Shown here: positions 1 to 61,607 of the stretch, piece by piece | Layout of the letters: the number at the start of each line of letters is the position of its first letter | Position numbering within the stretch: position 1 is the first letter of the stretch | Virus record (IMG/VR): IMGVR_UViG_3300048029_000244 | Span: 1 to 61,607 of that record | DNA: 61,607 bases | Direction: 5' to 3' (one strand) | From: a virus | Position numbers and translations under genes: made by a program | The notes under the pieces: model-generated | Seen by the model: only the letters and a program-made list of their open reading frames with translations | Told to the model about the DNA's origin: nothing | Databases searched by the model: none

Positions 1-65
1 GAGCAGCAAGTGATATAACAGTTGGTATTGAAACATCGCCTTGTGGACAATCATATACTAACGCT
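1..65. repeat. Terminal direct repeat, left copy
   Basis: These 65 bases are identical to the last 65 bases of the window. The open reading frame of the long fibre gene is continuous across the join. This is the signature of a circular or circularly permuted molecule assembled with an overlap, so the left edge is not a biological end. A true short terminal repeat cannot be excluded from sequence alone, but lying inside a coding frame argues for an assembly overlap. Confidence 0.95.
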
Positions 66-19161: not shown

Positions 19162-19170
19162 CTTTGCAAT
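19159..19170 (+). promoter_or_regulatory. Bacteroidota-type promoter, leaderless
   Basis: TAACTTTG (19159-19166) followed by CAAT places the element 4 nt before the ATG at 19171. The 15-base string TAACTTTGCAATATG is identical to that at 28588-28602. The element overlaps the stop codon of the previous gene. Confidence 0.75.
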
Positions 19171-36113: not shown

Positions 36114-38498
36114 ATGGCACCTAAACCACTTAATATAAATTTTGAAAATCCTAATGTAGATAAATTCTTATTTGGATTGTATTCTGTAGAACATGGTAAT
36201 GATGGTACTTTTGATGTAGGTAAATTAAATATACCTTACGTAGAAAAAGGTACTAAAAACGTAGTTACATCTACAGCTAGAGGTGGTTTTCAGTTTATTA
36301 AATCTACAAGAGATGAAATATTAAATAAATATGGATATGATGCTTGGTCAGACAATATAGAAGAGCAAAAAAAAGCTACTATGGCTTTGATTATAAGTAC
36401 AAGACCAGGGGCTGCAACATTAATAGAAAACGGAGAATTTGAAAAAGCTAGAAAAAATATAGGAGGAGTCTTGTTTGAAGGTTTATCAGATAAACATAAA
36501 AGAGTATTTAATAAAGCTACTAAAGACAAAGACAATTGGTCAAAAATTAAAGTAGTAAATAATTTAGAAGAAAATTTAATTAATAAAAAGAATAAATTAA
36601 CTAATTATGTTAACGAAGGCGGTTATACTGTAAGGTCTAATTGGGATAGTAACTCTAAATCTTTTGTTAATGTAGACTTAGATAATAATAAATTAAATTT
36701 TTATTCCTCATATGACGATATAAATATATCTGACGATGAAACTACAACTGATGCTACAGATAATAAAACTAAAAAGCCAAAAGCTCCTAAAGCTAAAACT
36801 GTAAGTTTAGACAAAAATTATAGGGTTTATGATAATAGTTCTGGCAAGTATTTACAAATTAATAGTAAGTATAATACAGAAACAAAACAATGGAGTCATA
36901 AAGCTGTTGGAGACACTGATTTAAATGACAAAGAAATTGCTGAAATTGGCAGCATGTATACTGATCCATTAGGAAGAACTCCAAAAGGAAGTACTACTCG
37001 TTATCAAAAAAGAACATTAGAAGACGGTACAGTTTATTATACTGGTCATTCGTCAGATGGTGAAGAACAAACGTCTTTTCAAAAAAGATTTTCATTTTTT
37101 GATACGCCGCCAACACAAGCAGAAACAGATACAAAAACACTTAAAACATTAAGTGATAATTTTTCTAAAAAAACACAAGGAGACAATTCTATAAAATCGT
37201 TAGAGCCTGAAAAAAATGAAATTTTAATTAAAGAAACAAATGATAGAAAACAAAATTTAGAAAAATTAAACAAAAAATATTTAGCTACTAGAAAGCCTGA
37301 AGATAAAATTGCATACGACAAAGCTCTAGAAGATTATAATAAATTTATAACTGATAATAAAGTTCCAACTAACAATCAGCTAGTAAATTTAACTACTAAA
37401 GAAAAAGCTTTACGAGAAACTTTAGCTGAAATGCAATCTAATCCTGATAATTTTACTGAAGCAGATATTATTGATGTACAAAAGAAAATAGATAAAGTAG
37501 CAATAGACATGTCTGTTATACAGGGAAATCCTAGAGCTACAGGCCCTTTTGGACATTCGCAAGAGCAAGTATCAAGCGTAGTTGTTGAAGATTCAGATTT
37601 AGAAAAAAGATACAGTACTGAAGATAAAAAAGTAGAACCTGTAGGATCAACAGAAGTTACTTATGATGACAGTGGAAACATAAGCGTAGAAGAAGCGCCT
37701 ACAGAAGTTGTAGAAGACAAACCTGTAGACGAAACTACTGAAACTACTGAAATAACAAATGAAATTCCAGAGGTCGTTGTAAGTGGGGATGATACTGATG
37801 ATGTTAGTGTTGATAATCGTCCTGTAGTACAGGAAGGGCCCTTAGCCGCTATAGGAGGTATAGGCACTGTTGTTTCAGCATTAGTAGGTGCTAAAGCATT
37901 AAGTCAAGCGTCTAAAGATCCTGAGATATTAGATATGCCAGAAATATCTGAAGCATTTAAAGCTGAATTATATCAAGCAGAACAATTATCTAAACAAGGC
38001 TTTAGACCTACAGAAGAAAGAGCTATACGTAAAGGAATTAAAGAAAGTTATGATTTAGGTGTAGAAAACGCTATTAGAGGAACTGCTGGCGATAGAGCTA
38101 AATTTCTTGCCATGACAGGAGTGTTAGATAGTCAGAGGCAATCTGCGCTATTAGACTTCGCTGCAAAAGATGAGGCTGTTAGACAGCAAAATAAAGACGC
38201 ATACAATCAAATGCTAAACTTCAAAGAGTCTTACGAAAAACAAAATGCTTTACAGTTAAGACAAGAAAAAATGCAACAAATGCAAGCAAGACAATCTAGC
38301 GCTTCTGCATTAGGAGCTGCTGCTCTTAAAACAGCTATGGATAATATTAATAACGCTAAAGGAGATCAAATGCAAAGAAGATATATTGCTTCTCTAACTG
38401 GCGACAATGTAAAGGTAGAAAACACATCTTTTTTAGACAGCTTAGGATTAGGTGGTATAAAAAACATGTTTGAATCTAACACAAATACTGAAGGATAA
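36114..38498 (+). CDS. Internal virion protein with N-terminal lysozyme-like domain
   Basis: Residues ~15-110 resemble a lambda-endolysin/SLT-type muramidase: SVEHGNDGTFDVGK (24-37, E26 as candidate catalytic residue), then TARGGFQFIKSTRDEIL (54-70), then EQKKATMALIISTRPGA. The middle (~200-560) is low-complexity, Lys/Thr/Glu-rich and disordered. The C-terminal ~180 residues have a hydrophobic helix (GGIGTVVSALVGAKAL) and Gln-rich helices typical of ejection proteins. It would digest peptidoglycan locally during DNA entry. It overlaps the next gene as TAATG. Confidence 0.75.
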   Translation: MAPKPLNINFENPNVDKFLFGLYSVEHGNDGTFDVGKLNIPYVEKGTKNVVTSTARGGFQFIKSTRDEILNKYGYDAWSDNIEEQKKATMALIISTRPGAATLIENGEFEKARKNIGGVLFEGLSDKHKRVFNKATKDKDNWSKIKVVNNLEENLINKKNKLTNYVNEGGYTVRSNWDSNSKSFVNVDLDNNKLNFYSSYDDINISDDETTTDATDNKTKKPKAPKAKTVSLDKNYRVYDNSSGKYLQINSKYNTETKQWSHKAVGDTDLNDKEIAEIGSMYTDPLGRTPKGSTTRYQKRTLEDGTVYYTGHSSDGEEQTSFQKRFSFFDTPPTQAETDTKTLKTLSDNFSKKTQGDNSIKSLEPEKNEILIKETNDRKQNLEKLNKKYLATRKPEDKIAYDKALEDYNKFITDNKVPTNNQLVNLTTKEKALRETLAEMQSNPDNFTEADIIDVQKKIDKVAIDMSVIQGNPRATGPFGHSQEQVSSVVVEDSDLEKRYSTEDKKVEPVGSTEVTYDDSGNISVEEAPTEVVEDKPVDETTETTEITNEIPEVVVSGDDTDDVSVDNRPVVQEGPLAAIGGIGTVVSALVGAKALSQASKDPEILDMPEISEAFKAELYQAEQLSKQGFRPTEERAIRKGIKESYDLGVENAIRGTAGDRAKFLAMTGVLDSQRQSALLDFAAKDEAVRQQNKDAYNQMLNFKESYEKQNALQLRQEKMQQMQARQSSASALGAAALKTAMDNINNAKGDQMQRRYIASLTGDNVKVENTSFLDSLGLGGIKNMFESNTNTEG

Positions 38499-40396
38499 TG
38501 GCAGGAATTGGTCTAAATACAGCTTTATTAGGTTTGTTTTCATCAGACAAAAAACAAGCTAAAGCTAGAGAAATGCAAATAGCTCAACAAATGTACAGCA
38601 AAGAACAAGCTGAGCTGAAACAACAATATGAGCTAGACGCGTCTTTAAGAGAGCAACAATTAGCGTATGATAAAAACGCTAAAATAATAACCACTAAAAG
38701 AGAAGAGGTTGCAAAACTTCAAAACAATTTAGATGATTTATATGATCAAGTAAGGGAGGGCGCAAAAAAATACGGGAATGCACAAAAATATATGTTAGCT
38801 GAAGGCAACGATTTGTTGTACAAAGGAAGAGCTAAATATGAACAAGAAATAGATAGAATTAAATTAAATCAAGATAACATTAGTAAGTTTATGGAGGCTA
38901 GCGATGATAGTCCATTACTAATGCATAATGATGAAATAAAAAGATATAACGACTATTTAAATGGCAAAACTGATACTTATACGTTTAAAGGGCTGTTAAC
39001 AGAAATAGACGATGGTTATATTACAGAAGGACAAAAGGGTGTAAATATACAGCCTACAGATATTTTAGATCACGGACAAAACAAAAGAGCTATTACGCAA
39101 AACTATATAAGAGAACATGATGGTCAGCAGCCAACAGAAATAGATTTAATAAATTATACTAGAGAAAAATATATAGGTGATGGACAAGTTACAGGTACTG
39201 CTGAAATTAAAACATCATTTGGTAATGAAATTGCTAAATTAAGTGAATTAACATTGAATTTAGTAGCGCCTCCACAAAAAGCATTTACAGAATCTTTTGA
39301 TGAAACATTTAAAAATGTTGGCGATCAAGCTATGCAATTTGGTTACGATCCTTCTAAAAGAGCCTCTATGAAAAATGGAAAGCGTATAAATACAGGAGGA
39401 ATGATGTTTACACAATCGCCAGACTTGCAAGATGCTATTGGATACGCAGCATTTAATGGTAGAAAAAATGGTACTTTTTATAATCCAAACCCTAAGTTAG
39501 CATTAAAAACAGAAAATGGTATTCCAGTAACTTCTTCGGATTTAGAAGAAGAAAGATTTAATAATGTGTTTAATATAGACACAACAACTTTGCATGATGA
39601 AGATGGTAATATGATTACTGATTCAGATACTGGTTGGGAAATATTTGGTAAAGAATCTAAAACAATAGACGCTAGACTGAATGGTTATTTTTATGGAACA
39701 CAAATAACATATTTAGATGAAAACACTGGTGAATTGAAAACATCTTTAATAACTGAAAACACAGACCCAGAAAAAGCAGCAGAGCTAGAGCAAAACTTTA
39801 GAAATGCACAATCTAGAAAAACTGTATTGTTAGCAGAGCTACAAGAAAAAGATGCATTAAGAGATGATTTTTATTATAAAGTAATAGACATGAATCCTAA
39901 CATGCAGACTGCTGTAAATGAATATATGGATAATGATGAGTTATCAGCTGTTATGAATCAAAATGCTGATGCTAAAAAAATGATAGAAAGCAAAAAAGCT
40001 AACGCTGAACAAATGCTACAAGCCGAAAATGGCATAATGGAGTACACAGGAGATAACAACGGCACTGTAATGATTTACAATACATTAGGGCCAGAAGTTA
40101 TGAAGTCTATGAATTATCACGGCGTAGATAATAATATGTTTGGCAACATTATGGCTTTTAATATGCTTAGAATACCTGAAGGCACAGAAAAACCAGGAGC
40201 TGTATTACAACAAAATATAAGAAACATGTATACAGAGTTAGGTCAAGAATCTGATTTTAGTAAAGCTTTAAAAGGTGGTTCTGCAACTTTTAATTCTTAT
40301 CTTCGCAAATCAGGGATATTTGCTGATTCAGAGTTGTATGAAAAATACAGATTGTTGTCAGGAAATTGGAACGCATACGCAAAAAATAAAAAATAA
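38498..40396 (+). CDS. Internal virion / ejection protein, 632 aa
   Basis: This protein starts MAGIGLNTALLGLFSSDKKQ and is dominated by coiled coil at residues 20-130 (KEQAELKQQYELDASLREQQ), followed by a mixed acidic region. A short hydrophobic N-terminus followed by a long charged helix is common in podovirus ejection proteins. It lies between the lysozyme-domain protein and the giant polymerase-like protein. No enzymatic motif seen. Confidence 0.65.
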   Translation: MAGIGLNTALLGLFSSDKKQAKAREMQIAQQMYSKEQAELKQQYELDASLREQQLAYDKNAKIITTKREEVAKLQNNLDDLYDQVREGAKKYGNAQKYMLAEGNDLLYKGRAKYEQEIDRIKLNQDNISKFMEASDDSPLLMHNDEIKRYNDYLNGKTDTYTFKGLLTEIDDGYITEGQKGVNIQPTDILDHGQNKRAITQNYIREHDGQQPTEIDLINYTREKYIGDGQVTGTAEIKTSFGNEIAKLSELTLNLVAPPQKAFTESFDETFKNVGDQAMQFGYDPSKRASMKNGKRINTGGMMFTQSPDLQDAIGYAAFNGRKNGTFYNPNPKLALKTENGIPVTSSDLEEERFNNVFNIDTTTLHDEDGNMITDSDTGWEIFGKESKTIDARLNGYFYGTQITYLDENTGELKTSLITENTDPEKAAELEQNFRNAQSRKTVLLAELQEKDALRDDFYYKVIDMNPNMQTAVNEYMDNDELSAVMNQNADAKKMIESKKANAEQMLQAENGIMEYTGDNNGTVMIYNTLGPEVMKSMNYHGVDNNMFGNIMAFNMLRIPEGTEKPGAVLQQNIRNMYTELGQESDFSKALKGGSATFNSYLRKSGIFADSELYEKYRLLSGNWNAYAKNKK

Positions 40397-40398
40397 TT

Positions 40399-43300
40399 AT
40401 GCCAAATAATTTTTTAGATGGTTTAGAACAGCCACAATCTACACAAAAATCTCAACAAAATTTTGATCAAATAGCTCAGCAACAAAATGAGGTTATTAAA
40501 AGAGCCTCTGAAAGCGTAGCAGAGCAACAAAGATTTGGATCTACTGGTATGGTTCAGCCAGACAGTTTTGCGGCAGACACAAGAGATATATTTATGTCTG
40601 GTGCAGAAAAAACTAAAAGGTCATTAGTTGCAGGTACAGGAGATGTAATGGAACAAGTTATAGACTTGACACAATTAGCGTATAACTATGCTACTCCATT
40701 AGGCATGGCAGAGCAAGCTTTAGGATTAGATTTTAGCAAAAACATTTTTGACTGGGTAGAAGAAAATACTGCTGGTCAACTACAAGAATATGGCGTAAAA
40801 TATAGAAAGCCAGGTACTGAGGATTTTAAATGGTCAGACTTAGGTACAGCAGATTTTTGGACTACAGACTTTGCTAGGCAAATGCCAAATTTACTTACAA
40901 TGATGGCTGGTGGTATGGGTCTTGCAAAAGGAGCAGGAAACCTTATGACTAGAATGGCTAGTAAATCTTTAGCTAAAAAAAGCGGAAAATTAACTACAGA
41001 TATGTTAACTAAAACTTCAGCTGGTTCGCAGTTTGGAGGTAAAGGGTTAGGTAAATTATTTACTAAAGGGCCTAAAGGAGTTGCATTAACTAATCAAGGT
41101 AAGGCAGTTGCAGGATTAGGTGGTGGTGCTGGCATGAACATAGTAGACGGCGCAATAGTGTCTGGTATGGCTTACGATAGAGCATTAGATGAGTTTGGCA
41201 CAGATGAAGAAGGCAGAAGATTAGCTGGTCAAATAGCAGGCAATATATTTGTAGATAATTCAAAATGGATAGCTGTAGACGCGGTGTCATGGTCTTTTAC
41301 TTTTGGTGGTGGCTCTAAGTTGTTACTACCTAAAGCTGTACAAAAAATGAACCAGTCTAAGTCTACTTTTGGTAAAAGGGTAAAAAATATACTAATTAAT
41401 AGTGGAGTTGGCGCTACAGCTGGGGCATCTATTGCAGGCGCAGCTACATTAGGTGAAGAAGGCATGAGTGACTCTATGTTAAAAGGCGCAGCTGTAGGAC
41501 TAGGAGCAGGTTTATTGCCAGGAAGATCAGGTGCAAGAGCATCAGTATTAATAGCTCCTGAAGGGATAGAAGAAATGTTTCAAGAAACATATCAAGAGTG
41601 GATTGAAAAGAAAGCTTTAAATGAGGCTAGAGGAGAAGAAGAAAAAACACCAACATATTGGGACTTTTATTCATCAGACAAAGCAAGGCGTACAAAAGCT
41701 GTATCATTATTTTCTGGTATGACTGGTGCTACTATAAGCAGATATACTAATTTAATAAACGATGTAGCTGAAAGAAGCTTTCAAAACGATCAACGTATAG
41801 ATAGTATAACGCGCTCTATGAACAGATTAAATGTAGATGAGACATACGAAAAGTCTGACGCTATTAGAGAGGCTGTAAGAGAGGCTGTAAAGTATGACAA
41901 TCAAGAGTCTCTAAAATCCTGGCTTAATGAAGAAGCGGCTAAAGATAATGGCTCAGTAGACGAAAGGTTTAGAGATGAAATGATGTCTTTGATAGACAAC
42001 ATGACGTCTATTAAAGAAAAAATAGGCACTAATGTAGATTTTACTACAAGTGAAGAACGTGTGTTATTTGAAGAGCATTCTTTAATGGCTATGCGTGAAG
42101 ATGATTATAATAATCAAAAAAGTATATACGAAAGCAATTTAGCAGAATTACAGGCTGATATAGATAAAATAAATAGATCTAGACAGACTGATAAAAACAA
42201 AAAAAATGCTATAAAAAACATTAATACATTAATAGAGGTAGAAAACGAAAAATTTGCTCAGCTAGAAAACAACTATAATGCATTACAAAACGAATCACAG
42301 TCTAACATAAATGATTTTACTACTAAGGCATTAGAAAAAGCAAAAAACAGAAATAAAGTAAATAAAGAAAATTTTGTTTCATTAGTTAATAAAGCAGCTG
42401 CTAAATCTAAATCTATAGCTAAAAAGTTTGTAGCATCATTTAATGAAATGAAAACAGCTTATGCTGAAGCTACGTCACAAGCTAAACAACAGCAAGTTTT
42501 AGACGAACAAGGTAACCCTGTATTAGACGAGCAAGGAAAGCCTGTAATGGAGCAAGCTCCTGAAGACATGTCTGACAATAGATATAATACGTTTGTAGAC
42601 AATATAGTTAAAGAAATAAAGATAGGCGCTGAAAACGAACTAGAAGGGTTTACAGATGAAGAAATTAAGTCTATTGCTATCAATGCATTAACAAAAGCAG
42701 GAATAACAAATGAGACAAGTTTGGATAATTTGCCTGATAATTTCGATGTAAAGCTAGAAGAAATAGTTGATAACGAAATAAAATTACTTACAGAAGAAAA
42801 AAAGAAAAATCAACCATCATTATTTCAAAAAATAAAAACTAAAACTAAAGAAGTAGTAGATAGTGTAAAAGATAAAATAACAACAAAAAAAGAAGATATA
42901 GAAACAGGTCGTAAAGTCGATGCACAAACTGCGACAGAACAAAAAGTTTCTAAAGAAGAAAAGCCTACACCTAAAGAGTCTATAAAAAAGAAGGCTGACA
43001 ATAAAGATTTAAGAATTATAAAAAAATTAGAAGATCAAATAGCTGAATTAAAGTTAAAAGAAAAGCTTACAGATATAGAGCAAAAGGTTTTAAACAAAAC
43101 AAAAAAAGCATTAGAATCTATATTATCTAGAATAGAGCGATCTAAAATAGATGAAGATAAAAAAATAGTAGATCCTAAAAAAATATTAAAAGATAAAAAG
43201 AAAGACGCTAAAAGGAAAAACGAATACAAAACAGCTTGGTACAACCCTATGCGTATTTTAGAAAAACGCAAATTAAAAGCTAAGCGTGATAAAGAAATTA

Positions 43301-46300
43301 AACTAGCGCAAGATGAATATCAAGAGTATGTAAAAAAGAATAAGCCTAGTTACATATATGCTATGAGAGATGCTAAAACTCCACAGCAGTCTATACAAAT
43401 AGCATCAGATATAAGCTCATTATTTGGTCAAGGAACATTAGGTAGTGTATTAGGAGGTGTTATATATGGAAAGGTAAATCCAGATTTATATAACACCATT
43501 AAGCATGAGTTCGGACATGTTTTGTGGCCAGCTTTAGAAGGATTACCTATTAAAGATTCTTTAATAAAATTAATTGCACAAGATAAAACAGCATTTAAAA
43601 AAGTAGCTCAAATGTATCCTGAAAATATATTGTTTGATACATCAGAAGGGCCAATGCTAATAGAGGAAATGTTATCTAATGTAGAAATGATTAAGCAGTT
43701 GTTAAATCACGACATAACATTAGAGGCAGACATAAAAGCTTTACAAGACAAAATGGCTTCTGGACAAATATATAGCGCCGAAGTAAATCTTATTATAGAC
43801 AAAATAAAAAGTTTACAAAGCATAGTACCTGCGGCTATAGAAAACCAAGAAGTTATACAAGAGGAAATATTTGCTCAAATGTTAGAGATGGATGATGTAA
43901 CATTAGAAAACATTATAACGTCTGACGTAAAAACTACAAAATCTTACAAAAGAAAAACAAAGATAGCTTTAGAAAAATTAGAAGCTATCACAAAAAAATC
44001 TAATGAAGAACAAGATAAAGAAATATTAAAATCATTAGATGATGAGTATAGAAAAGCGCAGGGAGAAGGTATAAATACATTTTTAGAAATATTTAAAGCA
44101 CAATCAGAAAAACGTAGAAAAAAGACTCCTATAGAAAAAGCATCTAGACGTGTTATGCGTCAAAAAAGCAAAGGTTTTGTAAGAGATATAAATATAATAT
44201 CAGAAATAGCAGCTAATTTAAATAGACAGGTTTCTGATGCAGTAGCAGAAAATACACAAAGATATAATGTATTGCTAGAAGAATCTGTAAATGAATTACA
44301 AGCTATTAATAATCCTACACAGGAGCAAATAAGCGAAATATTAGAAGCTAAAGCCTTAGAGTTTACAATGTATGATGAATCAGAGTTGTCTAACATCAAT
44401 ATAGGCGAAGACTTTGAAAAAGCTATAGCTGGTAAACTACTAGGAGATATTACTATATTAGGTGTGTTTGGTGATAGTATAATAACTGAAAAGCTAAAAG
44501 AAGCTGATATAATTAACGAAAAATCACAACGTATACCATTTGCTTTTGAAGAAGAGTTAGATCAATATATAGAAAGCAATGACAATCCATTAGTGCAAAA
44601 CGAAAGATCATCTGCATCTAAATTAATTGAAGCGTTTGCACAGTTTGCTTATTCAAGAACAGGTAGAGCTAAAATAGCTACTAAAGAAAAGTTTGCAGAG
44701 TTTACTAAAAAGAGTCCATCTTTATTAAGACAAAATTTACGTAGAGAGTTACACAAGTCAATAAAACATAATGGCGACATAGTTTCTTTTAATGAGTTCT
44801 TACAAAATCTTAAAGAATCTAAATCGTTAGAAGTAAAATTATTTAACGAGTTTATAGAGCTTGAATTTTTTGAGCTAACACAAGCTCCATACGGTTCAGA
44901 ACAATTCTTTACAAGTGTTGCTAGAAGCATTTATCACGAAGCTAGTAGTAATGTAGTAGAAAACAGAGATATATTATTTTATCAAGAAGAAGACAGTAGA
45001 TTTGATTTTGTATTTAATTTAAGCGAATTAGAGTCTTTTTATTCAGAAGCTTTGATTAATGAAAATGTATTTTACGATACAAATGAATTTGTAAATGCAT
45101 TAGACAACAATTCTACAATACATGATGCTATTAAGTTTTTAAAAAGAAAAGGCATTATAAATGATAATATATATAAATCATACATAGACGAAAATGCTAT
45201 AATGAATACTAAGTCTATAGTAGTAGATGGTAAAATGATGTCTATAAAAGATGCTGTAAAATATTATCCAGCTAATAAGGCAGCTCTTTTAAAACAACTA
45301 GCATCTTCATCTATTATAGCTAGTAGAGATTTAAACCAAACTACATTAGTAGAAATGGCTAAACTTAATACACGCACTAGCTTACTAAACAAAACTAGCG
45401 CGTTGTACGAAAACTTTGATAGCATACTTAAATATTTACAAGACCCTACTAGACCTACTAATGACAAAATAAAAACATTAGCAAACAGTAGTGTGTTTTC
45501 TTTGTTGCTTAAAAAAGGTATAACACCTATAATATCAGCAACATCTGGCGCTGAAGTAACTAAAGCAGAGGGTTATAAATTTGGCAGCAGTTACGTTAAC
45601 ATGACGTCAGAAGAAATGTTTATAAGTGATGTGTTGCGTTATATTTCCCAAGACGAATCATATCAAATGCCTATAATGGTATTTGAAGGTAAATCTAGAA
45701 GATACAATGTAACTGTTCCCAAATATAAAAGTTTGCATAAAAAAAATGGAGCTTTTGATGAAGTGTTTGTTATAAAGTCTTTGGCTAAAGAAATATCTAA
45801 AGCAAGGTATAAAAATGGAAAAGGAGACAAAGTATCAAGGTTGTTTAAAAAACCAGGGTCAGGTAAAACTATAATAGAGCAAATAACAGATAAAAAAGTT
45901 TTAGACGAGTATGTAAATCAATTAAAAGAGCAAATCAAAACACACCCTTATATACTTAAAAATCTAATAGAAAGCGGTAAAATAAAATCAGATACAAAAA
46001 AATTACCTAGAAAGTTATTAGAAGAAATGGTAGTGTCTAATGCTTTAAACAAATACTCTGCTCAAAAATCATTAGTAGCAGATCATGCTGAAAGAAAAGA
46101 TGCTATAGATTACGTAAAACGATCAGCTATGGCTATAGCTAGACGTAGACCTATATTTGATGAGTTAGAGGTTATAGTAACTCCAGACATATATTATAAC
46201 CCTAATGCAGAGCCAGGTTTACAATATATTAATGAACCAAAAGAAGGTTATAGCATAGTAGACGATTCTCAGTCTTGGATATTGCCTGAAGATAAAAAAC

Positions 46301-49300
46301 TAGCAGATGAAAATGCTGGATTAGGTAATGAATATGGTTCTGTTTTAAAAACAGTGTATTCTGGTAAAGACACTAGGTCACAATCTTTAGATTCAGGAGA
46401 TTTATATCTTAAACACAACACAGTAGTGTTAAGTGACGCTATAGTAGAAGAAGCAATAAAATCAGGGAATGTAACATTAGCTAAGCTTAGAGCGGTTATG
46501 CGTTCTAGAAAAAATCATATAGCAGGTAATTTTAGTAAAAATGTGCCAGTGATAGCAATGTCTCAATCTTCTGTAAAATCAGACATTAACAATTTTTTTG
46601 TTAAAACATTAAACGTAGACGATGTAAGAGTTAATATGTCAGACATTATAAGCACATTTAACGACTCTAAATACAATGCGTTAGAGTTAGAGTTATTGTT
46701 AACAGAAAACGTTTCTACAGACCTTATAAATGTAGGCAGAGAAAAACCTATAAAACAAATAAGTTTAGAAGAGTTTAATAAAACTATGGACGACAGATAT
46801 GTAGTTGATGGGCTATATAGAGGTTTAGATGGTAAAAAGTTTGGTATACAAAATATACTAGAGTCTAAAAGAAACGAAGAGTCATCTACAGTGCCTATAC
46901 AATTGCTGTCTAATATACTACAAGCTTTGCCTGAAGACATGAAGTCTGTAGGTTTAGAAGTAACACAATTGTACACAGAAGCTGTTGCCTTGTCGCAGCA
47001 AGAAGTTCTAGATTCTATAGAAAAAGAATTATCTGAGTATATAGATCCTAAGTGGGCAGGCAATCCATTGTCATATTTAGTACAAAGCGGTAATGTAAAC
47101 TTGCCGTCAGTACAATCTAAATTAATGGAAGTTATATCTAAAAGTGTAATATTAGGATCTACTAAATTTAGAAGTCCAGGGGGTATAGCTTTTGAAACAT
47201 CTCCAGTAGGTATACCATTAGCTTCTAGAGTTAAAACTAAAACATTAAAGTCTGCATATGGTTTAGGAACAGAAATATTTACTCTGCCTGATAATTTAAC
47301 TGTATCTGAAATTATATTGCCAGCAGCTATGTCTAAAAACTTTAAAAAAGGAGATATAGTAACAGCTACTCGTGTACCAGCAGATAAACTTGCTATGACA
47401 CAAACTTTTGTTATAAAAGAATTTTTAGATGAAGATGCAGGTCAAGTAACGATGATACCGCCAGCAGTATCTGCTATATTAGGTTCTGACAAAGATGGTG
47501 ACTCGTTATTTATAGATGGTAAATATGCAGAGCCTAAAACAGATTCTCAGAAGGCTTACAATAGATTCCATAATAAATTAACGGATTTCCTTTCTGATCC
47601 TAATATGGATGAAATTACAAGTAAATCATTAGAGGGTATAGAAGACTTTTTAAATATTAAAGACCCTAGACTTAGTACAGATATATTATCACCTGTTTTT
47701 GATAAACAGTCTGCACAAAACAATGTAGATATTAGAAATATACTAGGTGTAGCTATAATAGCATTAAGAGACACAAACTATTTGTCTTTTTATAATGCAT
47801 CTTTATTAGGTTCTGTTACGCTAGAAAACTCTACAGAAAATAAATTTGAAGACAGCGTTAACGGTGCAGAAGTAGAATTTGTAAGTAAGCTAGTAAATTT
47901 AATTTTAGATAATGCTAAATACCAAAGAGTCTTTAGCTTAGGCATAAATAGTTTAGTTATAAAAGACGCTATAATTTTGTCTAGACTAGGTTTTGACTAC
48001 GAAACAGTATTAGAGTTTTTAAATAAAGAAGAGGTTGTTAGAATGTATAAATATTCTAATAGAGCTAATATTTTAAAGTCTGTTGACCCTAAACACGGTC
48101 ATTATGAACCTGCGTTTTTAAGTTGGCTAGAAGGCAAGAAAAACATGGACGCGTACGAATACATAAACGACAACGATCCAAAAAATATAGAGTCATTAAA
48201 ACAAGAGTATTATGGCTCTGTAAAACCTTTACACAAAACAGACGCGTATAGAAAGAAAAAAGCTTTATCTAAATTAGATCAAAAATTAGTTTCTGAAAAA
48301 GGAAGTCTATTTAATTTATTATCTAAAGACACACCTAAATCAACAGAGGTAAATCTTTCTATTATAAGAATGTTGTCTGATGTAAAAAATGATATATCTT
48401 CATTTAGTGACATATTAAATGTTTATAACACTAATCCGCAAAGCGTGTTAGAAATAAAAGCAAGACAAGAAAACTACGAAAAGTCTAAAAATTTCCCATT
48501 AGGTTTAATTTTGCCAGAGTCATTACAAAATGATCCTATCTTAAATAATAGGCTAAATGCTTTAGTAGCTTTAGAGGAAAAGTATGAGTCTACAAATTCT
48601 TTTTCTAATAAGTCTATAAATAAATTATACGAGGCATTTTCTAAAATATTTAATTTTGATAAAGGCTATAAGTCTAAATCTATGTCTATGTATGTAGAAA
48701 ACACTATAATGGACAAAGCATTATCTAGCGTTATAAACACTAATGCTACAGAGTTTATGTTAAGTGACATTTTAAATAAATTAAAAGATGTACAGCAAAC
48801 TAAATTAGATATAGACTCGGTGTTTTTTTTATTAGTTAACATATCAGAAGATTCTATGTTTATAAATCAAGATATAGTTTCTAGAGCAACAGACCAAGAA
48901 AGCCTTGCGGAAATGCGTGAAATGCTTTTAGAAGAGCTTAAAGACATAACTATAGATGTGCAGTCTTCAGCTACTTCACCTATGCAAACTATGTCTGTAT
49001 ACGAAGCACTAGCTACATATGAGTATAATAAAACTAACAAAATGAACGAAAAGTCTAGGCTTAGATTTAGCGATAATATGTTAGCGTTATTTGATCCTAA
49101 ATTTGTAAAGTCTATAAATAATGCATTATCTATAGAAAACGTAACAAAGCTTTCCAAGTTTAATAGAGAGTCTTTATTAGATTTAGCTGAGCAAAACACA
49201 TCGTCTGTAGTAAGATTGTATCAATCAGAAATTACTGATAATATTAACGACAATACAATTTATTTAAAAGACAACAAATTAACTATACCTTATAGTAAAT

Positions 49301-51873
49301 TTACATCTAGCAATAGAAATTTAATCAACGCATTGTTTACAGCTGTAAATAGACCAGACGGCACTATAGCAGAGTATACATTAGACAATGATAAAATTAA
49401 AGGTTTATTAGACTTAGGTGTAGATGCTATGCCGCTTATCATAGAAGATGAGCTGCACTATATAGATTTAAAGACTATAGGTACAGATCCTAAAAATTCT
49501 ATAAAAAAAAAGACTAATTTAATAGAGCCTGATACTAATGTAGACGAATCTGCACGTTTAATATTAGAAAATCAACAAAAAAATATTAGTCAAGGTAAAG
49601 TAATGAGAAGAAAAACTATTTCTGACTCATCATTACTGTCCTATAATCCTAGAATGACTCTTGAAGATTATGCTATAGCAAGAAATGTAGATGTAAATTT
49701 ATTGTCTAATGACAGCGTAAATGCAGAGTTAAAAAAACAGCACAACAAAATGTCTAGGTCAAAAGACTATATAAACTCTTTTTTAAAAAACATTTATTCT
49801 AATTTAAACAACTATAGTAAAGACGAATTAATGCGTCTTGCTACAGATATATCCTCTGAGTATGAAATAGAAGAGTTGGCTAAACAAGCTATAGTTAAAG
49901 AAATAAGTATAGTATTGGCTCAAAAAGCTAGAGACGAACAAATAGCTTTAAATCCAGAAGGTTACGAAAAGTATGATGAAAAAGATGTAAGCTTTTTAAA
50001 AAAATGGTTAATGTCTAATGACGTAGACACAAACAATCCTGATGTACAAGCTATGACAAGAATTATTGAAAAGGAATATTTTTTGTTTACGCAGGAATAC
50101 AATAAAGAAGCTAGACCTATAAAAGAAATAGCTAAGAAATTAAAGTCTAAAGCACGTAAAGATTTAGGTTTAGTTAAGTATTTGAGGTTGTGGACTTTAG
50201 GAAAATTAAATGCGCATGTATATAGAAATATATATCAAACTGTAAAAGAAGGTGAAAATGAATATGTAGTTTTGAAAAAAGAAACTACAGGATTAACTAA
50301 TCTAGAAAAACAATTTCACGCAGAATTTACAAGAGTTATGGAGATACATCAAAGTAATTACAAAGGAGAAATACCATATCAAGCTATTAACATGAACGAA
50401 TCTTTTTCTAAACAAGGTTTGTATGGATTGTATTTATCTAGTGAAGGTATGGAGTCACATTTAAATTCTGTGCCAGTGTACGCTGTAAATCCTATGACTG
50501 GCAACAGAGAACAAAAAACATTTGTAGAATGGAAAGAATTATATTCTAATAAAGATGTAAATAAAAATAATTTTAAAAATTTACAAAACTTTAGGTCAAT
50601 TAAATCAAAAGCTATTGAGTTGGCAAAAAAAGGTATAGATGAAGATGGAAGGCAAATTGCATTCGATCAATCATATATAAAAATGTTGTTAGGAACGCAA
50701 GAGACATCAGGACATATTAATATGAAAAATATTAATTTAAAAGAATTTGCGTCTTTAGACCTAGAGTCTATAGCTTTAAAAACATTAAGAAGCAATATGT
50801 TTAAATACGGTACAAAAAACATAGGTGGTAAGTTTGAAGGTTTTGACAAGTTAGGCGTATTGATAGATGGAATTATAGAGTATAATGACATAAATCCTAA
50901 CATAAAAGAATGGGTAGAAACAATATACAAAGGCTATATTAAAGAAGGTAAGATGCCACAAGGTAAGCTAGGTAAGTTTGGTAAAGCGCTAGATGCGTTT
51001 GTATTATTTACTACATTAAAAGTTTTAGGGCCTTGGAATATTATGATTCCTATAAGCAATATAGCAATAGGTAAATATCAACAGCTAAGAGCAACAGGAA
51101 TGAAGCAATTTTTAAAAGGTGAGTCTAGATTTATAAATCCTGCTAACTATAAAAAGAACGCAGCTATTATAAGAAATTTTGTAGGTTTTGATTTATCTAT
51201 GTATGAATCATTTTATACAATGAAAGAAAAAACACCTTTTGATCAAATAGCAGACTTAATTATGTTGCCTATGGAGCAGTCTGAAAAATACATACAAGGA
51301 GCAGGGTTTTTGAGTTATTTGACAAAAGAAGAATACGACAATATAACTACAGACGAAAATGGGCATGTTAAATATATAGACGAAACAAAAGCATTAAGTC
51401 CAGAAAGAATAGCTGAAATTATGGAAAATGTAAGACGCGAGCAAGGTAAAGGATACAATATAACTAATCAAAGGTTAACAGGTATGTATGCTACTAGTAG
51501 ATTGTTATTTCAATTTAAAAAGTACATTCCAACTTTAGTAACAGAAAGATTTGGTAAAGATAGATTGGATAGATTTGGCAGAAATGTTATAGGCAGTAAT
51601 ACGGCTGTTGCCAAACTATTTACATCATATTTAAAAGGCGAAATAAAATTATCAGACTTAGATAAACAGCCAGAACATATTAAATACGGTATAAGAAAAT
51701 TAAGAAACGGTATATTTTTTAGTTTAGCTATAGCTGCTATGGCTGGATGGGACGAAGAAGATGATTGGATGGACAAGCTATCAAAAGACACAAGACTTTT
51801 ATATGATACTTCTAAATACAAATATAGACTGACACCATCAGCATATTGGAATATGAAGTCTATTATAAACTAA
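40399..51873 (+). CDS. Giant ejection protein with RNA-polymerase-like and zinc-protease motifs, 3824 aa
   Basis: Residues ~90-380 contain several hydrophobic Gly/Ala-rich segments (NLLTMMAGGMGLAKGAG, SGVGATAGASIAGAATLG), suiting membrane passage. Residues ~390-1000 are long coiled coils. HEFGH at 1036-1040 is an HExxH zinc-protease motif with a possible third ligand in EEIFA (1155-1159). RVP at 2325-2327, followed 35 residues on by GSDKDGDSLF (2362-2371), matches the spacing and the D-x-D-G-D metal loop of two-barrel RNA polymerases such as crAss-like phi14:2 gp66 and YonO. Residues 1705-1725 (KKGITPIISATSGAEVTKAEG) could be part of the partner barrel. The C-terminus has NITNQRLTGMYATSRLLFQF and further hydrophobic helices. 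It is the largest gene and lies last in the ejection block. Confidence 0.82.
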   Translation: MPNNFLDGLEQPQSTQKSQQNFDQIAQQQNEVIKRASESVAEQQRFGSTGMVQPDSFAADTRDIFMSGAEKTKRSLVAGTGDVMEQVIDLTQLAYNYATPLGMAEQALGLDFSKNIFDWVEENTAGQLQEYGVKYRKPGTEDFKWSDLGTADFWTTDFARQMPNLLTMMAGGMGLAKGAGNLMTRMASKSLAKKSGKLTTDMLTKTSAGSQFGGKGLGKLFTKGPKGVALTNQGKAVAGLGGGAGMNIVDGAIVSGMAYDRALDEFGTDEEGRRLAGQIAGNIFVDNSKWIAVDAVSWSFTFGGGSKLLLPKAVQKMNQSKSTFGKRVKNILINSGVGATAGASIAGAATLGEEGMSDSMLKGAAVGLGAGLLPGRSGARASVLIAPEGIEEMFQETYQEWIEKKALNEARGEEEKTPTYWDFYSSDKARRTKAVSLFSGMTGATISRYTNLINDVAERSFQNDQRIDSITRSMNRLNVDETYEKSDAIREAVREAVKYDNQESLKSWLNEEAAKDNGSVDERFRDEMMSLIDNMTSIKEKIGTNVDFTTSEERVLFEEHSLMAMREDDYNNQKSIYESNLAELQADIDKINRSRQTDKNKKNAIKNINTLIEVENEKFAQLENNYNALQNESQSNINDFTTKALEKAKNRNKVNKENFVSLVNKAAAKSKSIAKKFVASFNEMKTAYAEATSQAKQQQVLDEQGNPVLDEQGKPVMEQAPEDMSDNRYNTFVDNIVKEIKIGAENELEGFTDEEIKSIAINALTKAGITNETSLDNLPDNFDVKLEEIVDNEIKLLTEEKKKNQPSLFQKIKTKTKEVVDSVKDKITTKKEDIETGRKVDAQTATEQKVSKEEKPTPKESIKKKADNKDLRIIKKLEDQIAELKLKEKLTDIEQKVLNKTKKALESILSRIERSKIDEDKKIVDPKKILKDKKKDAKRKNEYKTAWYNPMRILEKRKLKAKRDKEIKLAQDEYQEYVKKNKPSYIYAMRDAKTPQQSIQIASDISSLFGQGTLGSVLGGVIYGKVNPDLYNTIKHEFGHVLWPALEGLPIKDSLIKLIAQDKTAFKKVAQMYPENILFDTSEGPMLIEEMLSNVEMIKQLLNHDITLEADIKALQDKMASGQIYSAEVNLIIDKIKSLQSIVPAAIENQEVIQEEIFAQMLEMDDVTLENIITSDVKTTKSYKRKTKIALEKLEAITKKSNEEQDKEILKSLDDEYRKAQGEGINTFLEIFKAQSEKRRKKTPIEKASRRVMRQKSKGFVRDINIISEIAANLNRQVSDAVAENTQRYNVLLEESVNELQAINNPTQEQISEILEAKALEFTMYDESELSNINIGEDFEKAIAGKLLGDITILGVFGDSIITEKLKEADIINEKSQRIPFAFEEELDQYIESNDNPLVQNERSSASKLIEAFAQFAYSRTGRAKIATKEKFAEFTKKSPSLLRQNLRRELHKSIKHNGDIVSFNEFLQNLKESKSLEVKLFNEFIELEFFELTQAPYGSEQFFTSVARSIYHEASSNVVENRDILFYQEEDSRFDFVFNLSELESFYSEALINENVFYDTNEFVNALDNNSTIHDAIKFLKRKGIINDNIYKSYIDENAIMNTKSIVVDGKMMSIKDAVKYYPANKAALLKQLASSSIIASRDLNQTTLVEMAKLNTRTSLLNKTSALYENFDSILKYLQDPTRPTNDKIKTLANSSVFSLLLKKGITPIISATSGAEVTKAEGYKFGSSYVNMTSEEMFISDVLRYISQDESYQMPIMVFEGKSRRYNVTVPKYKSLHKKNGAFDEVFVIKSLAKEISKARYKNGKGDKVSRLFKKPGSGKTIIEQITDKKVLDEYVNQLKEQIKTHPYILKNLIESGKIKSDTKKLPRKLLEEMVVSNALNKYSAQKSLVADHAERKDAIDYVKRSAMAIARRRPIFDELEVIVTPDIYYNPNAEPGLQYINEPKEGYSIVDDSQSWILPEDKKLADENAGLGNEYGSVLKTVYSGKDTRSQSLDSGDLYLKHNTVVLSDAIVEEAIKSGNVTLAKLRAVMRSRKNHIAGNFSKNVPVIAMSQSSVKSDINNFFVKTLNVDDVRVNMSDIISTFNDSKYNALELELLLTENVSTDLINVGREKPIKQISLEEFNKTMDDRYVVDGLYRGLDGKKFGIQNILESKRNEESSTVPIQLLSNILQALPEDMKSVGLEVTQLYTEAVALSQQEVLDSIEKELSEYIDPKWAGNPLSYLVQSGNVNLPSVQSKLMEVISKSVILGSTKFRSPGGIAFETSPVGIPLASRVKTKTLKSAYGLGTEIFTLPDNLTVSEIILPAAMSKNFKKGDIVTATRVPADKLAMTQTFVIKEFLDEDAGQVTMIPPAVSAILGSDKDGDSLFIDGKYAEPKTDSQKAYNRFHNKLTDFLSDPNMDEITSKSLEGIEDFLNIKDPRLSTDILSPVFDKQSAQNNVDIRNILGVAIIALRDTNYLSFYNASLLGSVTLENSTENKFEDSVNGAEVEFVSKLVNLILDNAKYQRVFSLGINSLVIKDAIILSRLGFDYETVLEFLNKEEVVRMYKYSNRANILKSVDPKHGHYEPAFLSWLEGKKNMDAYEYINDNDPKNIESLKQEYYGSVKPLHKTDAYRKKKALSKLDQKLVSEKGSLFNLLSKDTPKSTEVNLSIIRMLSDVKNDISSFSDILNVYNTNPQSVLEIKARQENYEKSKNFPLGLILPESLQNDPILNNRLNALVALEEKYESTNSFSNKSINKLYEAFSKIFNFDKGYKSKSMSMYVENTIMDKALSSVINTNATEFMLSDILNKLKDVQQTKLDIDSVFFLLVNISEDSMFINQDIVSRATDQESLAEMREMLLEELKDITIDVQSSATSPMQTMSVYEALATYEYNKTNKMNEKSRLRFSDNMLALFDPKFVKSINNALSIENVTKLSKFNRESLLDLAEQNTSSVVRLYQSEITDNINDNTIYLKDNKLTIPYSKFTSSNRNLINALFTAVNRPDGTIAEYTLDNDKIKGLLDLGVDAMPLIIEDELHYIDLKTIGTDPKNSIKKKTNLIEPDTNVDESARLILENQQKNISQGKVMRRKTISDSSLLSYNPRMTLEDYAIARNVDVNLLSNDSVNAELKKQHNKMSRSKDYINSFLKNIYSNLNNYSKDELMRLATDISSEYEIEELAKQAIVKEISIVLAQKARDEQIALNPEGYEKYDEKDVSFLKKWLMSNDVDTNNPDVQAMTRIIEKEYFLFTQEYNKEARPIKEIAKKLKSKARKDLGLVKYLRLWTLGKLNAHVYRNIYQTVKEGENEYVVLKKETTGLTNLEKQFHAEFTRVMEIHQSNYKGEIPYQAINMNESFSKQGLYGLYLSSEGMESHLNSVPVYAVNPMTGNREQKTFVEWKELYSNKDVNKNNFKNLQNFRSIKSKAIELAKKGIDEDGRQIAFDQSYIKMLLGTQETSGHINMKNINLKEFASLDLESIALKTLRSNMFKYGTKNIGGKFEGFDKLGVLIDGIIEYNDINPNIKEWVETIYKGYIKEGKMPQGKLGKFGKALDAFVLFTTLKVLGPWNIMIPISNIAIGKYQQLRATGMKQFLKGESRFINPANYKKNAAIIRNFVGFDLSMYESFYTMKEKTPFDQIADLIMLPMEQSEKYIQGAGFLSYLTKEEYDNITTDENGHVKYIDETKALSPERIAEIMENVRREQGKGYNITNQRLTGMYATSRLLFQFKKYIPTLVTERFGKDRLDRFGRNVIGSNTAVAKLFTSYLKGEIKLSDLDKQPEHIKYGIRKLRNGIFFSLAIAAMAGWDEEDDWMDKLSKDTRLLYDTSKYKYRLTPSAYWNMKSIIN

Positions 51874-58264: not shown

Positions 58265-58386
58265 TGAGAAAAATAGCGTCAACGTTTAAATACAAGTCTA
58301 AAACTAAAAGACCAGGTGTGCATTCTAAAAATGCCAGTAAAAATAAGTCTGGATATAAATCTAAGTATAGAGGTCAAGGTAAATAA
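58264..58386 (+). CDS. Small basic protein, 40 aa
   Basis: This ORF starts MRKIASTFKYKSKTKRPGVH and ends KSKYRGQGK. The KRPGVHSK...YRGQG pattern is common as a short conserved protein in marine phages. It is joined by TAATG overlaps on both sides, so it is translated as part of the fibre operon. Nucleic-acid or virion binding is suggested by charge only. Confidence 0.72.
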   Translation: MRKIASTFKYKSKTKRPGVHSKNASKNKSGYKSKYRGQGK

Positions 58387-61300
58387 TGAAATGGATAGGA
58401 CAACACATATGGGACTTTGTATCAAGGTTTAGAAATGATGTATACTTAGAAGACCTTGACGCTTCAAGCGGCACGTCTGCTTTAGTAGTAGACGCTCAAG
58501 GTAAAGTACATATCAACACTGGTCTAGCTACAGGCGGAGGCTCAGAGTATGTAAGTCTACCAGTAAGGTTTGAAGAAGCTGTATCAAAAGGAGACCCTGT
58601 TTATATTAGTGGTTATCACGGTTCGGTAGGCCCTGTGATAGTTGCTAAGGCAGACGCATCTAGTGCTAGCCACATGCCTGCTTTTGGATTAGCAGATGCT
58701 GATTACACACAAAACTCTACAGGTCACGCCATATCAATAGGTAACTTACAAGACATAGATACTAGTGATTATAGTGTTGGAGACACGTTATACGTAGCTT
58801 CAGGCGGTGGACTAACTAACGTAAAACCTACGGGCGCAAACTTAATACAAAACGTAGCTACAGTATCAAGGTCTAACGCTAACAATGGACAGTTAGAAGT
58901 TGTAGCAACTGGTAGAACTAATGATGTACCAGCACCATTATACATTGACCACGCTAATCAACGCGTTGGTATTGGAGCTACTAGTCCTGGTGAAAAGCTA
59001 GAAGTTAATGGTAATATAAAAATTGGGGATAATCAAAGAATAGCTTTTGGTAGCGGTGACGACTTAAGAATAACTCACGACAGTACAAACAGCTATATAC
59101 AAAACTTTACTGGTCATTTAAACATTATAAACCAAGCTGATGATAAAGATATAATATTCAAATCAGACGATGGCTCGGGCGGAGTTGAAACATATTTCTT
59201 TTTAGATGGTAGTAATGGTCTAACAACTTTCCCTGACAACAAAAAGCTTGGCTTTGGAAACGCTAGTGATTTAAGAATACAACACGATGGTAGCGATAGC
59301 TATATAAGCCAGGTTGGAACTGGCAATCTATACATACAAAACAGTGTTGACGACAAAGACATTATATTTCAATCAGATGATGGCTCTGGAGGTGTTACAA
59401 CTTATTTAGCTATTGATGGCAGTACTAATAGAGTTAATTTTAATAAACCTATAAAAATAGTTGATAGCACAGCTATAAACATAGGCTCAGGTTTAGATTT
59501 AAGATTAACGCATGATGGTACAGATTCTTTAATACAAAATTTTGAAGGTAATTTAGAAATACAGCAACGGGCAGACGACAAAGACATTATACTAATGTCC
59601 GATGATGGTTCTGGCGGGCAAACTGCTTACTTAACTTTAGATGGTACTAACGTTAGAACTAAATTCCACAAAACTGTAAATCTAGAAGATGATGTACAGC
59701 TACAAATAGGTAATTCACAAGATTTAAAACTATATCATAGCGGGACACATAGTTATATTAGTCAAGAAGGTGTTGGTGATTTATATATTCAAACTCTAAC
59801 TGATGATCGCGACATAATATTTTTAAGTGATGATGGTAGTGGTGGTGTAGCAGAATATTTTAGAATTGATGGTGGATTAGGTCATACAACTATTTCCAAG
59901 AGATTAAGAGCTAACGACAACGTAGACTTTGCCGTAGGAACAGGTAACGACTTGCGATTAGTGCATGATGGCACACATTCGTACATGACTAATTACACTG
60001 GTGATTTTTATATAGCTAATCATAGCGACGACAAACACATAATATTTCAATCAGACGATGGTAGCGGGGGTTTAGCGGAATACTTTAGAGTTCATGGTGG
60101 AGCTGAAATAGTTTTATTTAGCAAAGAAGCTAGGTTTGCTGATAATGTTAAACTAAAACTAGGAACAGGACCTGATTTTGAATTATACCACAACGGTACA
60201 AGCAGCGTTATACAGGATCTTACAGGAGATTTATATTATAGAACTTGGGCTGGTAGTATGATTTTTGAACAAAATCAAAACGATGGTGACATTATATTCA
60301 AGTCTGACGATGGTTCTGGAGGCGTTGAAACATATTTCTTTTTAGACGGTAGCGAAGGCGTTGTAAACTTTCCAGATAACAAAAGACTGACATTTGGTAC
60401 TGGTCGTGATTTATTTTTATACCACGATGGAACAAACGCTACGTTTAAAAACTACGTTGGCGATATTGTAATACAAAATGAAGCTAATGACAAAGACATA
60501 ATATTTAAGTCTGATGACGGTTCAGGTGGAGTAACAGAATACTTTAGGTTAGATGGTAGTGTTGGTGCAGGTTCTACTGTCCACACAGTATTTCCAGATA
60601 ATAGTAAAGCAGTGTTTGGTACTGGATTAGACACGCAAATATATCATGATGGTAGCAACTCTTACATCAAACAACAAGGTGGAGGAGATCTCTATATACA
60701 GCAAACAACTGACGACAAAGATATAGTACTACAGTCAGATGACGGTTCAGGTGGAGTAACAGCCTACTTAACTTTAGATGGTAGTGCTGTGGCGAACAAA
60801 TTTAGTGAAAAAGTACAAATATACAAACTTGATGCTACAGCAAATCCAAGATTATCTATTGGTAGACAAGCGCAAGAAAGCATAAACTTTGACGTTGAAG
60901 ATAGGACAGCTAGAATATATCACAGACAAGATGAAACAACAGGCAATCATGTTTTAAAGCTTACTGTAGATTCAGATACTTCTGACACTAAGGATATACA
61001 TTTAGGGTTTAGAGATGCAGATGGTTCTAACGAGTCTATTAAATTTACTGTTGATGAAAGTGGTAATGTAGGTGTTGGTACTACTGATCCATCTGAAAAA
61101 CTACATATTGTAGGAGATTTAAAAGTAGCTACAAATGCTGATGCTGGTGTTATACATTTTGGCGATACAAGTGATGAAACAAAAATAGTAGGATATGACT
61201 CTAGCGACTCCAATACAAGGTTTGATTTTTTTACATCTGGCTCTAAAAAGCTAACTATACTTGACAGCGGCAACGTTGGTATTGGAACTGATAGTCCATC

Positions 61301-61607
61301 TGAAAAGCTAGAGGTTGATGGTAATATAAAGTTAAGCGGTAATTTAGATATTGAAGGTAGTGTACAAAAACAAATACAAGTATTTCCAATGAACTTTGTA
61401 GATGATTTAGGCACAGATAAACACTTTATGCCGTTTGTAACCGCTAATGAGCAAACAGCTAATTATCAAGAAGAAGCTTGTATGGTTATGCCAGCAGACG
61501 GTAGAGTTGTATCTGTAACGGTACACTACGCTCAGATGCACGGAGCAGCAAGTGATATAACAGTTGGTATTGAAACATCGCCTTGTGGACAATCATATAC
61601 TAACGCT
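58386..61607 (+). CDS. Long tail fibre with SDDGSGG repeats, N-terminal part (continues at 1-302)
   Basis: This ORF starts MKWIGQHIWDFVSRFRNDVY and stays open to the window end; the same frame resumes at base 3 and stops at 302, for 1152 residues in total. Residues ~50-200 are a distinct beta-rich region. Then eight copies of a module with DDKDIIFxSDDGSGGVxxY follow, probably a beta-helix or beta-prism shaft. Each module also repeats a D-L-x-x-x-H-D-G-T/S-x-S-Y-I segment. Near the C-terminus are GNVGVGTTDPSEKLHI-type repeats, also typical of phage fibres. Confidence 0.88.
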   Translation, partial: MKWIGQHIWDFVSRFRNDVYLEDLDASSGTSALVVDAQGKVHINTGLATGGGSEYVSLPVRFEEAVSKGDPVYISGYHGSVGPVIVAKADASSASHMPAFGLADADYTQNSTGHAISIGNLQDIDTSDYSVGDTLYVASGGGLTNVKPTGANLIQNVATVSRSNANNGQLEVVATGRTNDVPAPLYIDHANQRVGIGATSPGEKLEVNGNIKIGDNQRIAFGSGDDLRITHDSTNSYIQNFTGHLNIINQADDKDIIFKSDDGSGGVETYFFLDGSNGLTTFPDNKKLGFGNASDLRIQHDGSDSYISQVGTGNLYIQNSVDDKDIIFQSDDGSGGVTTYLAIDGSTNRVNFNKPIKIVDSTAINIGSGLDLRLTHDGTDSLIQNFEGNLEIQQRADDKDIILMSDDGSGGQTAYLTLDGTNVRTKFHKTVNLEDDVQLQIGNSQDLKLYHSGTHSYISQEGVGDLYIQTLTDDRDIIFLSDDGSGGVAEYFRIDGGLGHTTISKRLRANDNVDFAVGTGNDLRLVHDGTHSYMTNYTGDFYIANHSDDKHIIFQSDDGSGGLAEYFRVHGGAEIVLFSKEARFADNVKLKLGTGPDFELYHNGTSSVIQDLTGDLYYRTWAGSMIFEQNQNDGDIIFKSDDGSGGVETYFFLDGSEGVVNFPDNKRLTFGTGRDLFLYHDGTNATFKNYVGDIVIQNEANDKDIIFKSDDGSGGVTEYFRLDGSVGAGSTVHTVFPDNSKAVFGTGLDTQIYHDGSNSYIKQQGGGDLYIQQTTDDKDIVLQSDDGSGGVTAYLTLDGSAVANKFSEKVQIYKLDATANPRLSIGRQAQESINFDVEDRTARIYHRQDETTGNHVLKLTVDSDTSDTKDIHLGFRDADGSNESIKFTVDESGNVGVGTTDPSEKLHIVGDLKVATNADAGVIHFGDTSDETKIVGYDSSDSNTRFDFFTSGSKKLTILDSGNVGIGTDSPSEKLEVDGNIKLSGNLDIEGSVQKQIQVFPMNFVDDLGTDKHFMPFVTANEQTANYQEEACMVMPADGRVVSVTVHYAQMHGAASDITVGIETSPCGQSYTNA
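59163..60755 (+). repeat. Eight tandem fibre modules
   Basis: SDDGSGG-encoding units begin near 59163, 59373, 59598, 59826, 60051, 60303, 60510 and 60735, a spacing of 207-252 nt (69-84 residues). DNA identity between copies is moderate because codons differ, so the repeat is old or selected at the protein level. The unit also contains the DGT-xSY segment. Confidence 0.88.
61543..61607. repeat. Terminal direct repeat, right copy
   Basis: Identical to bases 1-65. Removing one copy gives a closed genome of 61,542 bp with an uninterrupted fibre gene. Confidence 0.95.

Follow-up and report, generated by a model that had tools for sequence, protein, structure and literature searches.

A probable crAss-like virion RNA polymerase within the giant cargo protein of a lineage of ~60–70-kb phage contigs

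A DKDGD loop encoded in the window (the whole 61,607-nucleotide stretch of DNA analysed, from an uncultured environmental phage) is, with a probability of about 85%, the metal-binding active site of an RNA polymerase that belongs to the crAss-like virion type, is DNA-dependent and has both its barrels in a single chain. The polymerase would be carried in a giant cargo (ejection) protein that is packed and injected, and would transcribe the early gene block. Sequence profiles and structure prediction identified residues ~1601–2640 of this protein as a single-chain two-barrel RNA polymerase, and homology, predicted fold and gene position assigned it to the crAss-like virion RNA polymerases (vRNAPs). 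Judged from its sequence, the core has diverged, so activity is not guaranteed. The giant protein comprises the following parts:

40399–51873 (+), giant 3824-residue protein with N-terminal gp67-like, HExxH, RNA polymerase core and C-terminal parts; 3645–4110 residues in the giants of relatives
40831–41607 (+), N-terminal part (residues 145–403), similar to the phi14:2 virion protein gp67 (blastp, E = 2e-4)
43504–43518 (+), HEFGH (1036–1040), a zincin-like metallopeptidase motif; H, E and H invariant in 15
43861–43866 (+), glutamate pair E1155/E1156, 115–120 residues after HExxH, invariant in 15 relatives
45199–48318 (+), predicted RNA polymerase region (1601–2640), from the A2 profile match to 6VR4, the AlphaFold2 model and Foldseek
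46162–46581 (+), predicted first (beta-like) barrel (~1922–2061), from model strands, alignment to gp66 ~954–1052 and conserved lysines
46348–46350 (+), K1984, candidate active-site lysine (44/45 rows), one residue off a gp66 lysine in the alignment
46411–46413 (+), K2005, candidate active-site lysine (45/45 rows), aligned to the lysine of gp66 PTYLKYS
47170–47517 (+), predicted second (beta-prime-like) barrel of six strands (~2258–2373), from model strands
47371–47379 (+), RVP (2325–2327), R and P invariant
47488–47502 (+), predicted metal-binding loop DKDGD (2364–2368), three D and G identical in 45/45 rows
47692–48003 (+), bridge-helix/trigger-loop-like region (~2432–2535), within the best-scoring segment against gp66 (i-E 3.4e-10)

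In-frame translation of positions 47371–47512 (+) yielded RVPADKLAMTQTFVIKEFLDEDAGQVTMIPPAVSAILGSDKDGDSLF, which lies without interruption inside the 3824-residue open reading frame. GSDKDGD occupies residues 2362–2368, with the aspartates at D2364, D2366 and D2368 and a spacing of 35 residues from P2327 to G2362, and the numbering and spacing in the preliminary description, which had read this stretch as the second double-psi barrel of a polymerase, were thus right. DxDxD alone occurred nine times in the 29,781 residues of the window's open frames of at least 60 residues; R-x-P followed after 25–45 residues by [GN][AS]DxDxD occurred once across the same frames. The giant protein contained no transmembrane-like stretch above the hydropathy cut-off. 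A model of its HExxH part had a pLDDT of 50, too weak to confirm a zincin fold.

The single giant sequence had no match in Pfam, PHROGs or the PDB (phmmer), and Pfam and PHROGs searches with 15 giants of the family returned noise only. In a tblastn search of the region against annotated phages, crAss-like giants and the Thermus phage phiFa RNA polymerase matched weakly, at the motif. Starting from the giant protein alone, an initial scan of viral contigs recovered no relatives, and a scan of bacterial genome contigs none either. The large terminase retrieved 80 environmental viral loci; when 28 of the terminase-linked records were searched with residues 1535–2667, the giant protein was found in 16. 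Those of the remaining records that were searched a second time, by profile, again gave no match; they are linear, 21–53 kb long, and may be fragments. A second, motif-seeded scan yielded 59 loci. The resulting alignment, A2, consisted of 45 non-redundant rows. Loci L179, L181, L187 and L188 encoded giants of ~3050–3200 residues on 25–80-kb contigs, with a DxDGD match and 16–20% identity, and are maybe another lineage with such a polymerase.

The pattern R-x-P ... G[SA]DxDGD was present in 14/14 giants of relatives that were read through the loop region. These giants had been collected via the terminase and whole-region BLAST, with the motif unused, and therefore provide an unbiased test; conservation of the motif is far beyond chance. 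In A2, the three aspartates, the glycine of DxDGD, R2325, P2327, G2362, L2274 and K2005 were identical in 45/45 rows, and K1984 in 44/45. The homologues thus conserve all three aspartates, and conserved lysines were found in the partner barrel as well, at 1984 and 2005 and not near 1705–1725, where the preliminary description had placed them. It had also pointed to a lysine in place of the usual phenylalanine in the loop. The lysine is present here, but it is only one of several residues tolerated between the first two aspartates (L in 37 rows, K in 3, Y in 3 and M in 2).

A 15-row profile missed 6VR4 (phi14:2 gp66) in the PDB. With the A2 profile, 6VR4 ranked first among all PDB sequences (E = 7.3e-15). 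The aligned segments were co-linear and took in the lysine region of the first barrel, the second barrel including its catalytic loop, and the bridge-helix/trigger-loop region; the suspected kinship with gp66 was thereby borne out. The next match was a repeat protein (1e-4, a short helical stretch). gp66 scored 57.6 bits, versus ≤3.0 for 900 shuffled proteins. The profile also matched the vRNAPs encoded by Suoliviridae, Steigviridae and Intestiviridae, as well as phiFa's annotated RNA polymerase, and gave no match in Fpv3, Pachyviridae phi18:3, or the elemo and Manatee Spring phages.

AlphaFold2 on alignment A2 (residues 1601–2640) produced a model with a pLDDT of 80.3 and a pTM of 0.77. Its second-barrel strands (658–667, 701–707, 720–725, 734–742, 750–752 and 769–773, model numbering) are ordered as would be expected for a second barrel of six strands that ends at the DxDGD loop, and R-x-P follows the third strand; the topology of each barrel was judged by strand order only. 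The bridge-helix/trigger-loop-like region was modelled as a long helix (832–864) and a hairpin (868–882). In a Foldseek search against the PDB, 6VR4 came first (E = 1.7e-19, TM 0.60 by query), with 12% identity in the structural alignment of the RNA polymerase core, and the top fold matches were all RNA polymerases. Matches among viral models were mostly crAss-like giants. The reading as a second double-psi barrel, with a predicted barrel fold, is consistent with this model.

The giant gene sits where Crassvirales keep their cargo and vRNAP genes, as far as homology and gene order can tell, downstream of homologues of the tail tubular and muzzle proteins:

29622–30281 (+), tail tubular protein homologue (crAss001 Gp43; blastp, E = 2e-13)
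30285–35411 (+), muzzle protein homologue (crAss001 Gp44, cr53 gp60, phi14:2 gp71; blastp, 1e-14 to 4e-19)
36114–40396 (+), two proteins of 794 and 632 residues in place of crAss001 cargo proteins C1 and C2, by position and size

The muzzle homologue matched crAss001 Gp44 with E = 3e-15 and cr53 gp60 with 4e-19, while the 794- and 632-residue proteins had no sequence match to C1 and C2 (blastp). The order tail tubular protein, muzzle, two cargo-size genes and giant is the same in cr53_1 and crAss001. Both gp66 and gp67 of phi14:2 were annotated from virion mass spectrometry. Elsewhere in the window, a CobS/MoxR-like ATPase gene (phrog_249) lies beside a gene for a conserved unknown protein (phrog_1909) in the replication block (13769–15900, −). 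Between the divergent blocks (18794–18939), the minus strand carries a stretch resembling a T arm (GGGGGTTCAATTC) and another rich in GC, in which neither ARAGORN nor Rfam detected an RNA; Rfam and tRNA scans of the whole window were empty. The contig may be incomplete, because a tail-fibre-like gene (58386–61607, +) runs off its end; this gene combines segments of numerous fibre families (15 PHROG hits).

TAnnTTTG is the −7 promoter element of Bacteroidota. It was found upstream of 6/32 rightward versus 0/30 leftward genes in the window, ending 4–7 bases ahead of the start codon in the six rightward genes:

19159–19166 (+), TAACTTTG, preceding the late-block gene at 19171; like motifs at 309, 1148, 2015, 18925 and 28588

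Among the rightward genes with the motif are the first ones of the terminase block (18940 and 19171) and one for a structural protein (28600); the leftward genes, none of which has it, include those for helicase, exonuclease and annealing proteins. Upstream of genes, only the −7 part occurred; the full Bacteroidota pattern, TTG-17..23-TAnnTTTG, was absent there. The strand bias recurred in two relatives (5 versus 0 each) and in a partial third (2 versus 0), with occurrences largely at orthologous genes and so not independent, and for a motif of only 8 bases; a more distant fourth relative (G017) had no bias (2 versus 1). Judging from this spacing, the six rightward genes may have promoters of the Bacteroidota type and be transcribed with little or no leader. 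In crAss-like phages, early (regulatory and replication) transcripts are made by the vRNAP and late ones by the host RNA polymerase (PMC10136315), the packed enzyme being injected and transcribing independently of the host (PMC10136315; PMC10172136). The motif distribution appears to fit such a division. The division of labour is not clean, because three small rightward genes at the left end (309, 1148 and 2015) also bear the motif. Within the leftward block, 282 bases (17562–17843) without an open reading frame of 60 residues contain repeated short words (such as AAATAGACAG) and are a candidate early promoter or origin region.

From synteny and the distribution of the host-type promoter motif, we infer injection and transcription of early genes, in line with the role suggested in the preliminary description, and propose the following course for packaging, activity, target genes and the role of the HExxH part. 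The giant protein would most likely be packed in the capsid near the portal and would pass the tail partly unfolded, ahead of or with the DNA. Its N-terminal and HExxH parts may help to cross the envelope, or work in it. The polymerase would then refold in the cytoplasm and, with no need of the host enzyme, transcribe the leftward early/replication block, and the rightward late structural block, with its Bacteroidota-type −7 motifs, would be left to the host RNA polymerase.

It is improbable that a real two-barrel RNA polymerase is made in the infected cell within a giant late protein and is not injected, or is freed by proteolysis and used late. P23-45 does use a distinct polymerase of this class that is not part of the virion (PMC10770324), and the present clade is known from sequence. 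Yet the gene lies in the late structural block after muzzle and cargo-type genes, as those of crAss-like virion enzymes do, the N-terminal part of the giant resembles a virion protein of phi14:2, and an enzyme made late and not packaged could not serve early genes.

We consider it quite unlikely that the polymerase fold is catalytically dead and retained in the ejection protein for a structural role or for threading DNA. Such a role would be in line with the giants of the elemo and Manatee Spring phages, which are of similar size and in a comparable position and gave no polymerase signal by profile; since such giants exist, the giant protein has other jobs. They are represented by elemoA_7-9A gp21 (L209) and the MW202828 giant (L210), with 3694–3859 residues and an HExxH, in phages of similar size and gene order, and form a natural comparison for the role of the remainder of the giant. 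In a dead enzyme, however, loss of the metal-binding aspartates, the glycine, R, P and K2005 would be expected, and all are invariant across 45 diverged rows.

Another two-barrel enzyme, either DNA polymerase D-like or an RNA-dependent RNA polymerase of the QDE-1/RDR type, is very unlikely. QDE-1, Pol IV-RDR2 and maize RDR2 were the next fold matches after 6VR4, along with P23-45 gp96 and bacterial beta-prime subunits, and the crAss vRNAP is itself close to QDE-1 (PMC10770324, PMC7886860); against this, the DNA-dependent phi14:2 enzyme was the best match by both sequence and fold, and an RNA-templated step is not expected in a dsDNA phage. An EF-hand-type calcium-binding loop in an unrelated fold, named beforehand as the outcome that would overturn the polymerase reading, was rejected as barely credible: taken by itself, DKDGD looks like the beginning of an EF-hand loop, but position 12 is Lys instead of Glu/Asp, a strand follows the loop instead of a helix-loop-helix arrangement, and profile and fold searches give RNA polymerases.

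The phage was placed with its large terminase:

19697–21505 (+), large terminase (phrog_6681, 1e-90; tree)

In the terminase tree, the window grouped with 12 environmental relatives in a clade (99/99). This clade attaches to the branch that separates Crassvirales plus Fpv3 from Pachyviridae plus the elemo and Manatee Spring phages. The window fell outside the named Crassvirales families sampled, in a tree that is unrooted and has long branches. From this terminase placement, the clade would be either a deep member of Crassvirales or their sister, both of which fit the unrooted tree. Environmental phages outside the crAss-like assemblage served as terminase outgroup in Yutin et al. (PMC7886860). 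With somewhat less than even confidence, we suggest that the ~60–70-kb clade is a sister of Crassvirales that has kept an early form of the injected polymerase, a single chain with envelope-crossing, HExxH and polymerase parts and a canonical DxDGD that later became DFDxD in crAss-like phages. If so, the injected enzyme would be older than the order Crassvirales and would have been split into two or three proteins later.

Few relatives of the cellular RNA polymerase have diverged as far as those that phages inject, and the polymerase described here would bring the crAss-type injected enzyme into a lineage of smaller phages that falls outside the sampled named crAss families. Pfam, PHROGs and single-sequence PDB searches all miss its core of ~1000 residues with a canonical DxDGD. 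The lineage could provide an outgroup for when crAss-type polymerases arose and for how polymerase and ejection functions were fused or split, and its smaller genome could be used to ask which promoters the polymerase reads. A limited search of open-licence papers found no description of a polymerase in this phage clade.

The closest known system is phi14:2 gp66 (PDB 6VR4; Crassvirales, Steigviridae), which shares the two barrels in one chain and in the same order, R-x-P followed by GSDxDxD, the matching lysine, the bridge-helix/trigger-loop region and a neighbourhood of cargo genes. gp66 is a separate protein of 2180 residues with the loop DFDID in a 100-kb genome, whereas the polymerase here shares one 3824-residue chain with a gp67-like, HExxH-containing N-terminus on one side and a long C-terminus on the other, has DKDGD and is encoded in a 61.6-kb genome. 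The single-chain layout is shared with the Suoliviridae giants (cr53_1 gp57 with 4645 residues, cr6_1 and cr115_1), which also have HExxH ~1300–1500 residues ahead of the catalytic loop and in whose genomes, likewise, two genes lie between the muzzle gene and the giant. They differ in having the loop DFDID, TAG read as an amino acid and ~100-kb genomes, and are only ~21% identical to the window giant over the shared part. Canonical DxDGD loops occur in the Thermus phage enzymes, the tape-measure-fused vRNAP gp96 of P23-45 and the gp64/phiFa RNA polymerase, and gp96 combines polymerase and metallopeptidase domains in one giant ejected protein (PMC10770324). P23-45 is, in contrast, a long-tailed phage; gp96 matched the model much more weakly than 6VR4 (Foldseek, E = 1.4e-3, TM 0.14 by query), and the A2 profile gave no sequence match to gp96 in the PDB and a short one to phiFa. 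YonO of SPbeta is a single-chain two-barrel RNA polymerase that likewise has a DxDGD loop, but it is not part of a giant virion protein. The pattern that the preliminary description ascribed to both crAss-like virion polymerases and YonO held for phi14:2 gp66 and failed for YonO, which has FDNDGD instead of GSDxDxD and no profile match; YonO-type membership was rejected for these reasons, and the crAss-like vRNAP, not YonO, is the relative. New with respect to these systems are the phage lineage (~60–70-kb contigs that fall outside the named families sampled), the combination of a single-chain layout with a small genome, and DxDGD in place of the crAss DFDxD.
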